Source of the DNA: an uncultured Alphaproteobacteria bacterium
GTDB lineage: Bacteria; Pseudomonadota; Alphaproteobacteria; Rs-D84
Direction of reading: 5' to 3'
DNA: 43,907 nt
NCBI GenBank assembly: GCA_944389235.1
Contig: CALXLO010000007.1
Coordinates: 1 to 43,907 of the forward strand
A program made the translations under genes and the position numbers. The notes beneath the pieces were generated by a model that saw only the letters and a list, made by a program, of their open reading frames with translations, was not told where the DNA came from and searched no databases. This document shows, piece after piece, positions 2,467 to 33,178 of the stretch. Every line of letters starts with the position of its first letter. The stretch's first letter is position 1.

Positions 2467-4575
<2,109 letters not shown>

Positions 4576-10676: not shown

Positions 10677-10904
10677 AAAATAAAAACCACCATTTTCATT
10701 TTGGTGGTCAGGAGGTTGAGAACAATCAACAGAATTGTGTCGCGTATTCTTTGGTTATTTCGCGAACCCTCCTGACCTAAGTATCGTATGTTCAGGAGCT
10801 TGTTTTTCGTCGTAAAATTAAAATCGGCGTTGACCACCAATTTTTAATATTCAGACGCTGTTGAACGGGTTCCCACACCCTGTGTCGGCGCACATAGACC
10901 GGCA
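10677..10904 (-). ncRNA. structured RNA copy 1 (unrecognised family), free-standing
   Basis: Predicted transcript of about 228 nt in the convergent gap after comM. In transcript order: hairpin Pa (10904-10883), hairpin Pb (GGGT...ACCC, 10880-10867), long hairpin Pc (10858-10808), strand C CTCCTGA (10798-10792), strand B GGTCAGGAGGGTT (10777-10765), two small hairpins, strand A AACCTCCTGACC (10717-10706), and terminator ACCACC-loop-GGTGGT plus T run (10708-10677). B can pair with C or with A. A shares its last three bases with the terminator. Copies 2 and 3 (near 26.7 and 32.7 kb) have the same layout. No gene lies downstream on this strand, which favours a free sRNA or an orphaned leader. Confidence 0.75.
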
Positions 10905-10909
10905 TGACT

Positions 10910-10938
10910 ATCTTAGCGTTATGATTTTGGTATTGCAA
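10910..10938 (-). promoter_or_regulatory. promoter of structured RNA copy 1
   Basis: Minus-strand TTGCAA (10938-10933), a 17-base spacer, and TAAGAT (10915-10910), 5-7 bases before the first hairpin. Confidence 0.6.
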
Positions 10939-25679: not shown

Positions 25680-26549
25680 TTAATTACTGTAATGACATTT
25701 ATCGTCATATATCCATGTACCTGTGCTGTCTGTACCTTCGATGCCGGATGGTAAATAACATTCTGTAATATCAACCGTACCTGGATTTTGTCCGCCGCCG
25801 CCGATCATATTACCAGCTACGCCGCCCGGACCAGCGGTTGTTTGCGTTCCAGACGAATGTGTCGGGCACGGTGTACAATATGCGGTTATTGTTGCGTTTT
25901 GATTAATCCCAGATATTTTGGGTGTACCATAATATCCGGTTGGACAACGCACTTGGTCAGGTATTACAATCATGCATTTATTGCCGGTGCATGTGCGGTA
26001 TGTGCGTCGTTGTACAGCATTATCGCCATTTTCGACCAATGTCCATGCATCAGGCAGACATGTTGAAGAATCGCATTCGCCGCCACCCGGACTGGGGGCG
26101 GTATAGTTATACAGACATTGGTAAAATGTTATTTGGTTGCAACCTTGGATTACAAATTTTACACGGGAATAGCCTGATTTACATGATGTTGCAGATTTTT
26201 TATAATATTTTATATTGTTTATATCAAAACATACATTATTGTATCCATCAGTGCCGGCATCACCCGCGACCGCGGCAGAACCTGTATCTTGGTATTCTAT
26301 GCGGTCTGATATATCGGGGCATGTTGTATATGTGGTGCACACATACCCGCTGCCGCCGCCACCAGTACCAGAACCACCATCACCACATTTGCGACAACAT
26401 GTACTGGTAATCAGGTCTTCACACCTCATGCAACCGCTGATGCATTCTATTACTTGGTCCCAATCAATTCCTGTGTATTCATCGCCACTGGCGGCAAACG
26501 ACATTTGCGGTGTGATTATTAATGCGATTAACAATATAAAATATTTCAT
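25680..26549 (-). CDS. secreted cysteine-rich protein downstream of structured RNA copy 2
   Basis: 289 residues, function unknown. The signal peptide is KYFILLIALIITPQMSFAA. The head is CISGCMRCEDLITSTCCRKC, followed by a glycine linker and several paired cysteines, then CPTGYYG, a Gly-rich stretch and the C-terminal module ECYLPSGIEGTDSTGTWIYDDKCHYSN. The same head and tail patterns occur in the genes at 24.6 and 32.8 kb. I chose the ATG at 26549 because it begins the signal peptide and follows GTGGGA. The start lies 22 bases past the T run of structured RNA copy 2, so any readthrough would make that RNA its leader. Confidence 0.75.
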   Translation of the reverse strand: MKYFILLIALIITPQMSFAASGDEYTGIDWDQVIECISGCMRCEDLITSTCCRKCGDGGSGTGGGGSGYVCTTYTTCPDISDRIEYQDTGSAAVAGDAGTDGYNNVCFDINNIKYYKKSATSCKSGYSRVKFVIQGCNQITFYQCLYNYTAPSPGGGECDSSTCLPDAWTLVENGDNAVQRRTYRTCTGNKCMIVIPDQVRCPTGYYGTPKISGINQNATITAYCTPCPTHSSGTQTTAGPGGVAGNMIGGGGQNPGTVDITECYLPSGIEGTDSTGTWIYDDKCHYSN

Positions 26550-26570: not shown

Positions 26571-26784
26571 AATAAAAACCACCGGAAAAAATTTCAGGTG
26601 GTCAGGAGGTTGGAAACAATCACATGAATTGCGTTGTGTATTTTATATTCCACAACCCTCCTGACCGGAATCAGGAGGTTTTTCATCGCAATAATTAAAA
26701 TTGGCGCTTTTATACGCGCCACCAATTATTATTCCGACGCATGTGTAGAGATTTCCAAGTCTCATTGATGGAACACCCATCAAC
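26571..26784 (-). ncRNA. structured RNA copy 2 (unrecognised family), upstream of a cysteine-rich gene
   Basis: Predicted transcript of about 214 nt. Order: Pa TTGATGG/CCATCAA (26783-26765), Pb GAGA...TCTC with loop CTTGGAAA (26763-26748), long Pc (26739-26684), strand C AACCTCCTGA (26680-26671), strand B GGTCAGGAGGGTT (26666-26654), two small hairpins, strand A AACCTCCTGACC (26611-26600), and terminator ACCACC/GGTGGT (26602-26578) plus T run. C:B and B:A are mutually exclusive, and A shares three bases with the terminator stem. Copy 1 matches it in sequence through Pc and the stem; copy 3 matches in layout with compensatory changes. The cysteine-rich gene starts 22 bases downstream. Confidence 0.8.
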
Positions 26785-26790
26785 ATTTTA

Positions 26791-26819
26791 ATTATATACT
26801 GTGTAAAACATAAATACAA
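26791..26819 (-). promoter_or_regulatory. promoter of structured RNA copy 2
   Basis: Minus-strand TTGTAT (26819-26814), a 17-base spacer, and TATAAT (26796-26791), 7 bases before the first hairpin. It begins two bases past the prmC stop codon, so the RNA has its own start and is not just a 3' end of prmC. Confidence 0.68.
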
Positions 26820-32542: not shown

Positions 32543-32571
32543 TTGATACCAGTATAAAAAGTCAGTAATAT
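32543..32571 (+). promoter_or_regulatory. promoter of structured RNA copy 3
   Basis: TTGATA (32543-32548), a 17-base spacer, and TAATAT (32566-32571), 7 bases before the first hairpin. Confidence 0.68.
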
Positions 32572-32578
32572 TCAAGAT

Positions 32579-32806
32579 GAATCCATATTGAGATATGTGG
32601 GTTCGGGACTTAGAAAATCCCTTATACCTTCGGTGTGGAAAACACATCGTTAACATCAGGGCACATATTGTGCCGGTCCCGACAATTTGGTCGGGATGCT
32701 GTGGTTTATACAACAAGGGGCACGCGCCCTTAAAATCCACAGGATCATCAAGGTATATGATTTTTCTAACATCCCGACCACCGAAAAAGGTGGTTTTTGT
32801 TTTTTG
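32579..32806 (+). ncRNA. structured RNA copy 3 (unrecognised family), upstream of a cysteine-rich gene
   Basis: Predicted transcript of about 228 nt. Order: Pa (32579-32604), Pb GGGA...TCCC with loop CTTAGAAAA (32605-32621), a diverged Pc region with hairpin GGCACA/TGTGCC (32660-32674), strand C TCCCGAC (32677-32683), strand B GGTCGGGATG (32689-32698), hairpin CTGTGG/CCACAG (32699-32742), hairpin ATCAT/ATGAT (32744-32761), strand A CATCCCGACC (32770-32779), and terminator ACCACC/GGTGGT (32777-32794) with a long T run. B:A is a perfect 10-bp stem. Compared with copies 1 and 2, two of its pairs changed on both sides (A-U to G-C, G-C to U-A). The next gene starts 19 bases after the T run. Confidence 0.8.
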
Positions 32807-32824: not shown

Positions 32825-33178
32825 ATGAAAAATCCGTATCTGTTATTGTTATCATTTGCATCGTTGCTGGTATGTTCAGATGGATGGGCGGTTTTGCTGT
32901 GTGAAAATTGTACCGATGCGCACGGCATGTGCCTGCGTACCGGCCCCAGTTGTTGTGCGCCATGTAATACCGGCGGTGTAGTTATACCAACAAAATGTGG
33001 AATTGGTTATTATGGTACATATCCAAATTGTACAAAATGTCCAGCCGGTCCGAATGGTGAACCGACAACATCGCTGGGCACATCGCTTACGGTTTCTGGG
33101 TGTTATATAGAAATTGGAACAGATTTTGAAGACGGTACGGGTTATGGTGAATATGTGAAAATGTGTCATCCTTTTTGA
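32825..33178 (+). CDS. small secreted cysteine-rich protein downstream of structured RNA copy 3
   Basis: 117 residues, function unknown. The signal peptide is NPYLLLLSFASLLVCSDGWA. The head is CENC...CLRTGPSCCAPC, followed by a short glycine segment, CGIGYYGTYPNCTKCP and the C-terminal module GCYIEIGTDFEDGTGYGEYVKMCHPF. This is the shortest, nearly minimal form of the family seen at 24.6 and 25.7 kb. AAAAAGGGA lies before the ATG. An in-frame extension upstream would run through the structured RNA and is rejected. Confidence 0.78.
   Translation: MKNPYLLLLSFASLLVCSDGWAVLLCENCTDAHGMCLRTGPSCCAPCNTGGVVIPTKCGIGYYGTYPNCTKCPAGPNGEPTTSLGTSLTVSGCYIEIGTDFEDGTGYGEYVKMCHPF

Follow-up and report, generated by a model that had tools for sequence, protein, structure and literature searches.

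Multicopy C4-type RNAs with private two-part codes and alternative terminator folds as candidate gene leaders in the order of Candidatus Enterousia

The window analysed here, meaning the whole stretch of 43,907 nt, carries three copies of a structured RNA that is well supported as a variant of the C4-type RNAs. The reading that best accounts for these RNAs, with a probability of roughly 0.6, is that they are privately addressed C4-type transcription attenuators, each copy forming the leader of a bacterial gene.

A preliminary description of the window had proposed three homologous structured RNAs with promoter and terminator, and these were found at the places, in the order and on the strands it gave. 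Copies 1–3 have in common, and in the same order, a promoter, hairpins Pa, Pb and P3, more hairpins, several strands and a terminator. The proposed TTGnnn promoter was present in all three copies, with a spacer between -35 and -10 of exactly 17 bp in each. Folding energies compared with dinucleotide shuffles gave z = -8.1, -3.2 and -7.3 for the three copies, and 0/200 shuffles were as good in each case. An Rfam scan at the three loci returned no family at its gathering score, and the statement that the RNAs are not 6S, SRP, tmRNA, RNase P or T-box RNAs held. A known riboswitch class was rejected, as nothing in the window reached a gathering score; weak matches to STnc430, BSnc120, rnk and others, mostly on other stretches, were far below threshold and were dropped. 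The parts of copy 2, all on the minus strand, are:

26814-26819, minus: -35 element TTGTAT, read from the sequence, with a 17-bp spacer
26791-26796, minus: -10 element TATAAT, read from the sequence
26765-26784, minus: hairpin Pa, equivalent of the first hairpin of phage P1 c4-a1b1
26748-26763, minus: hairpin Pb, with an 8-nt loop showing A1 (a1 TTGGAAA, 26752-26758; sequence, covariation)
26740-26745, minus: strand B1 (b1 CACATG), pairing with B3 at 26621-26626
26684-26739, minus: hairpin P3 (fold, 60-copy alignment)
26657-26678, minus: hairpin P4 (D5':D3'), competitor of the C4 stem (fold, alignment, subtype comparison)
26600-26666, minus: C4-like core (structure on the alignment, match to Rfam sRNA-Xcc1)
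26656-26666, minus: D3' of the core
26634-26655, minus: P5 of the core
26617-26631, minus: P6 of the core, with loop B3 CATGTG
26610-26616, minus: strand A3 of the core, TTTCCAA
26600-26609, minus: D' of the core, CCTCCTGACC
26574-26603, minus: intrinsic terminator GACCACC..GGTGGTTTTT, its GACC common with the C4 stem (sequence, alignment helix)
25680-26549, minus: cargo gene for a secreted Cys-rich protein of 289 aa with a signal peptide (no Pfam/NCBIfam family)

Copy 1 is an orphan with no gene downstream and lies convergent with an OMP-like gene. Its parts and those of copy 3 are:

10910-10938, minus: copy 1 promoter TTGCAA-17-TAAGAT (-35 at 10933-10938, -10 at 10910-10915; sequence)
10867-10903, minus: copy 1 Pa and Pb, A1 TGGGAAC at 10869-10875 (sequence)
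10858-10863, minus: copy 1 B1 CAACAG (pairing test, sequence)
10769-10857, minus: copy 1 P3 (10808-10857) and P4 (10769-10798; fold, sequence)
10706-10777, minus: copy 1 C4-like core, with A3 GTTCTCA (10717-10723), B3 CTGTTG (10727-10732) and D' (10706-10715)
10682-10709, minus: copy 1 terminator (sequence)
32543-32571, plus: copy 3 promoter TTGATA-17-TAATAT (-35 at 32543-32548, -10 at 32566-32571; sequence)
32580-32621, plus: copy 3 Pa and Pb, A1 TTAGAAAA at 32610-32617 (sequence)
32623-32630, plus: copy 3 B1 TATACCTT (sequence)
32631-32698, plus: copy 3 P3 hairpins and P4 (32675-32698; fold, sequence)
32689-32779, plus: copy 3 C4-like core with a diverged D triple, D3' GGTCGGGATG and D' CATCCCGACC (covariance model match, 42.1 bits)
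within 32689-32779, plus: P5, P6 with loop B3 AAGGTATA, and A3 TTTTCTAA of the copy 3 core
32776-32799, plus: copy 3 terminator (sequence)
32825-33178, plus: copy 3 cargo gene for a secreted Cys-rich protein of 117 aa

The count of three dispersed copies did not stand, as the RNA is an order-wide, multicopy leader RNA. Covariance model R1, built from 60 Enterousia copies with copy 3 left out of training, detected 26 copies at E < 0.002 in the own genome of the window (823 kb), 34 at E < 0.001 in a second genome (a single contig of ~1 Mb), and, counting no more than 12 per genome, matches in 182 of the 201 genomes belonging to the order of Candidatus Enterousia (order Rs-D84, with reduced genomes; PMC12306168). 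Copy 3, described earlier as a diverged homologue, was found at 42.1 bits (E = 3.6e-10), and since it was absent from training it is a true homologue. BLASTN with copy 2 recovered further copies in the own genome, and 22 of the 59 searched genomes, all of the same genus, gave matches. An IUPAC pattern scan of GTDB contigs gave at least 119 stretches, nearly all from gut Alphaproteobacteria and some of them named Candidatus Enterousia. One contig labelled Prevotella (L193, JAMPCO010000047.1) also carries an RNA of the Enterousia type, probably through a binning error. The search of related genomes and Rfam proposed earlier thus yielded homologues across the order and no Rfam family at its gathering score, but also sub-threshold relatives among the sRNA-Xcc1 RNAs.

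In 132 copies, the Pb loop strand A1 has a complementary strand, A3, that lies immediately 5' of the terminator region, and the P6 loop is complementary to B1. These copies hold 36 different A1 and 77 different P6 sequences, and each strand pairs better with its own partner than with a swapped one (16.92 v 11.27 for helix A and 15.65 v 10.67 for helix B; 0/2000 permutations as high for either helix). In the alignment of 60 copies, helix A is 100% paired with no broken cell, five of its six pairs are changed on both sides, and up to 43 sequences are doubly changed at one pair. For helix B the paired fraction is 93.9%, likewise with 5/6 pairs changed on both sides. The covariation score of this alignment was 0.400, compared with 0.161 when shuffled and at most 0.073 when slid. 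Pb, P3, P5 and the terminator covary as well, and a structure with P1, P5 and P6 plus Pb and P3 has 96.3% of its cells paired and 82 doubly changed cells (25 in shuffled alignments). Pairing of a1 with a' and of b1 with b' is thereby demonstrated at the level of covariation, which would also be expected from pairing in cis alone. Massive compensation in helices A and B confirms the earlier view of a conserved RNA fold rather than a DNA repeat. The main stem on which that view was based is real and shows compensatory change, but it consists of two helices, A and B.

The preliminary description overlooked that strand D3' can pair in two alternative ways, with D5' or with the strand immediately 5' of the terminator. 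In subtype I, D' (CCTCCTGACC) can pair with D3' (GGTCAGGAGG), giving the C4 stem P1; in hairpin P4, the partner of D3' is D5' instead. At least five subtypes can be told apart by their D sequences in the own genome (e.g., GGTTGGAG, GCAGGAG and GGTCGGG), and D5', D3' and D' change together across them. A set of 49 copies from two genomes includes 18 different D3' sequences; in this set D3':D' pairs 8.78 of 9 positions (6.27 when swapped) and D5':D3' pairs 6.94 of 7 (5.73 when swapped), the own-partner values being somewhat inflated because D' and D5' were picked as best complements. The C4 stem is 98.8% paired and its sole variable pair is compensated; as the strands hardly vary within subtype I, support for the P4 and P1 stems comes from the comparison between subtypes and from two compensated sequences. 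The last four bases of D', GACC, double as the first four of the terminator arm GACCACC/GGTGGT, and because of this overlap P4 with the terminator and the D3':D' stem are mutually exclusive. The existence of two alternative folds is supported by these comparisons, and in structure and position the arrangement is that of an attenuator, in which the gene is preceded by an intrinsic terminator and by a conserved antiterminator that excludes it.

Nested fold prediction for 117 copies, with energies that leave out pseudoknots, gave A/B self-pairing, P4 and the terminator as the default. With a1b1 free, the C4 stem lagged by 5.7 kcal/mol immediately ahead of terminator synthesis and by 11.6 kcal/mol once the terminator was present. 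When A1 and B1 were masked, the C4 stem became the pre-terminator optimum in 90% of the 117 copies, compared with 3% unmasked, 2% when a neighbouring stretch of equal length was masked and 6% with a random stretch; masking A1 alone gave 56% and B1 alone 42%. These results point to a1b1 occupancy as the natural input of the switch. Masking of a1b1 in the full-length RNA still leaves the terminator fold ahead of the C4 fold by 3.6 kcal/mol, which calls for a kinetic choice, made during transcription.

The surroundings of the copies fit a leader. A TATAAT-type -10 element lies 40-41 nt from the A1 end in 96 of 118 copies (spacer 17 in 76), and 117 of 125 copies are followed by a gene on the same strand, at a median of 50 nt after GACC, so near the terminator that there is no room for another promoter. 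Downstream proteins begin with a signal-peptide-like sequence in 93% of cases, as against 28% of control ORFs. The cargo includes secreted proteins (Cys-rich, VTKC) and, as judged by eye from the sequences, OMP-like proteins, HTH regulators and an HU-like gene; the Cys-rich secreted cargo matched no Pfam or NCBIfam family above cut-off. A secreted VTKC.L..STTC family of ~145 aa has many paralogues behind these RNAs (e.g., L253, 1053-1475, minus), and its AlphaFold model is confident (pLDDT 84.8), with no fold match in the PDB better than E = 2.5. Three modules of RNA plus HU-like gene (L210, L212 and L216; G000 C5:465-620, C5:26801-26961 and C9:46-195) have near-identical gene starts and different A and B codes. 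Two orphan copies from two genomes (L052, plus strand, ~2263-2471; L191, minus strand, 2878-3085) have the same A/B code and lie ~290 nt upstream of a histidyl-tRNA-synthetase-like gene.

In the mechanism proposed, RNA polymerase would start just upstream of Pa and make a1 in the Pb loop, b1, P3 and P4, then the C4-like core with b' in the P6 loop and a', and finally the terminator shortly before the start codon. With a1b1 free, the computed folds favour self-pairing and termination, which would leave the gene off and release a short RNA; with a1b1 occupied, the transcript is computed to reach the C4 fold ahead of terminator synthesis, and readthrough upon occupancy is the predicted sign of regulation. 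Since no partners of a1b1 other than C4-type a'/b' strands are known, the proposal is that a C4-type RNA that carries the same address acts in trans, perhaps after trimming by RNase P before GGU as in P1, and promotes the C4 fold and readthrough. Both this trans step and the direction of regulation are what we infer from the computed folds and the known partners.

It is rather unlikely that the RNAs are purely trans-acting C4-type sRNAs, in which case the 210-nt terminated RNA, or a core processed from it, would silence distant mRNAs via a' and b', while the downstream gene would be expressed only by leakage or be an unrelated neighbour. C4 of phage P1 does act in trans, and copies without a gene exist, namely copy 1 of the window and the two orphans that share one code. 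The code of copy 1 (10678-10883, minus) occurs at exactly three other places in its own genome (L229, L230 and L233; G000 C6:22468-22693, C3:64380-64565 and C2:115341-115474), where a1b1 is intact and the C4 core has decayed; one of them lies upstream of a gene for a secreted 385-aa protein, and the three loci may be trans targets or fossils. The tight spacing of gene and terminator speaks against such sRNAs, and a target of the a2b2 type is absent at the adjacent start: comparison of own and swapped downstream regions detected no a2 (A 13.12 v 12.53, 147/2000) and no b2 (B 12.54 v 13.04, 1891/2000) at the cargo starts, whereas the positive control, sRNA-Xcc1 loci, revealed b2 (B 17.95 v 13.40, 0/2000). 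The conserved exclusion between P4, P1 and the terminator would also be useless in a pure sRNA.

Among the intact copies of the own genome (19) and the second genome (30), 0 of 606 same-genome pairs have both codes in common and 14 have the A code alone in common, counts to be read with the reservation that metagenome assemblies may merge exact duplicates. With each locus carrying its own A+B code, each gene would be addressed separately; the recurring code of copy 1 stands as the single exception in the own genome. Same-genome copies at 80-90% backbone identity have B codes that are only 47% alike, close to the 37-40% of unrelated copies, and of close copies (at least 85%) both codes are kept in 8 of 25 pairs between genomes and in 0 of 11 within (Fisher p = 0.076); an excess of private codes over the expectation from divergence is only suggestive.

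These codes also bear on a second alternative, less probable still, in which a metabolite, the ribosome or a protein decides between P4 with the terminator and the C4 fold. A terminator with a mutually exclusive antiterminator is the classical design of such a riboswitch or protein-binding attenuator, but conservation of aptamer-like positions is highest in the C4 fold, and the codes differ between copies of one genome; variation is greatest in a1 and b1, which control the switch and which a ligand common to all copies could not read. A mobile or recombining DNA element (integron-cassette-like or a duplicated repeat) with an incidental RNA fold is highly improbable, for although sRNA-Xcc1 is known from integron cassettes (PMC12444791) and the modules of RNA and HU-like gene are duplicated, the copies have their own promoter at a fixed distance, a U-tract terminator and compensatory changes in most helices.

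Attenuation by privately addressed C4-type leaders suggests a way for bacteria with reduced genomes to control a large repertoire of secreted proteins gene by gene. A more far-reaching proposal, put forward tentatively, is that in these host-associated bacteria the codes have been driven apart after duplication and that each secreted-protein gene is turned on only when a trans C4-type RNA of its own code meets the nascent leader, giving 20-35 orthogonal addresses genome-wide that derive from a phage immunity RNA. If true, orthogonal addresses without cross-talk between paralogues would allow independent or bistable expression of surface proteins. With over a hundred two-part addresses sharing one RNA scaffold, the copies also form a natural collection in which the specificity and evolution of RNA-RNA recognition are directly testable. 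C4 has so far been a curiosity of phage immunity and sRNA-Xcc1 an orphan integron sRNA; the present analysis joins both, and adds a cellular C4-type version at one copy per ~30 kb in genomes of ~1 Mb or less throughout a whole order of gut bacteria.

The annotation of phage P1 (AF234172) places a1 in an 8-nt loop, followed by b1, C4 (77 nt, GGU...CCACC), a2, b2, icd and ant. Rfam c4-a1b1 models the same 8-nt-loop hairpin, and RF01695 and RF03163 score 68.8 and 51.0 bits in phage P1, the C4 of which was folded for comparison. The order of parts in C4 of P1/P7 (RF01695; c4-a1b1, RF03163; c4-2, RF02944; clan CL00128) is that of the Enterousia RNAs: a hairpin, a second hairpin with a1 in its 8-nt loop, b1, one or more hairpins, and a core starting with GGU that has three stems, b' in the loop of the third, a' between the third stem and the closing strand, and a CCACC end. 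The upstream a1 and b1 of the Enterousia RNAs are complementary to a' and b', and GG(U) stands at the 5' end of D3'. This equality of layout places the window RNA with the C4-type systems. The Enterousia RNAs differ from C4 in having no a2b2 at the start codon and no icd/ant antirepressor, in a terminator that overlaps the closing strand, in P4 competing with the core, and in being chromosomal and multicopy, at 26-35 per genome. RF01695, RF02944 and RF03163 gave no match at gathering threshold in the window or selected loci, and RF01695 was found in 0/59 genomes of the genus and in none of the control genomes. The lack of a2b2, of an antirepressor and of a sufficient covariance model score puts these RNAs outside the C4 family proper. 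Model R1 gave no match in the phage P1 c4 region; what links the RNAs to P1 is therefore their anatomy and a bridge through sRNA-Xcc1.

This bridge is reciprocal. RF02221 (sRNA-Xcc1), present in 53 of 299 Proteobacteria, matches the Enterousia D3':D' stem, P5, P6 and ACC end over its full length with 30.6-42.0 bits, the best score (42.0 bits, L045) not reaching the gathering score of 53 bits. Conversely R1, trained on Enterousia only, finds 5/30 sRNA-Xcc1 loci at E <= 0.0012 over the whole length, the best being L059 (45.4 bits, E = 3.6e-12). The sRNA-Xcc1 loci likewise have an upstream Pb hairpin with A1 in its loop, and B1; unlike the Enterousia copies, with their terminator and P4, they have b2 around the start codon of the next gene, and the neighbouring genes are often antirepressor-like. 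The family described at first as new-looking therefore has no Rfam family at threshold, but relatives exist. The sRNA-Xcc1 loci of the 299 Proteobacteria (L059-L088) themselves resemble C4-type antisense RNAs, and Rfam lists them outside CL00128; at one of them (L066) a sub-threshold c4-2 RNA (2890-2958, minus, 34.8 bits) lies 1.3 kb from the sRNA-Xcc1 RNA. The Group 1 C4-like sRNAs of A. baumannii are described as phage-derived, with many per genome, a variable a' and a GGW 5' end, and differ from the Enterousia RNAs in that no terminator-switch leaders before secreted-protein genes are reported for them (PMC5320573).

Competition between a terminator and a paired leader connects the Enterousia RNAs to a further system. 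In the repC attenuator of plasmid pT181, an antisense RNA from the opposite strand pairs with the leader and decides whether the terminator forms. Leader pairing would set the terminator in Enterousia as well, but there the target and antisense strands lie in one transcript.
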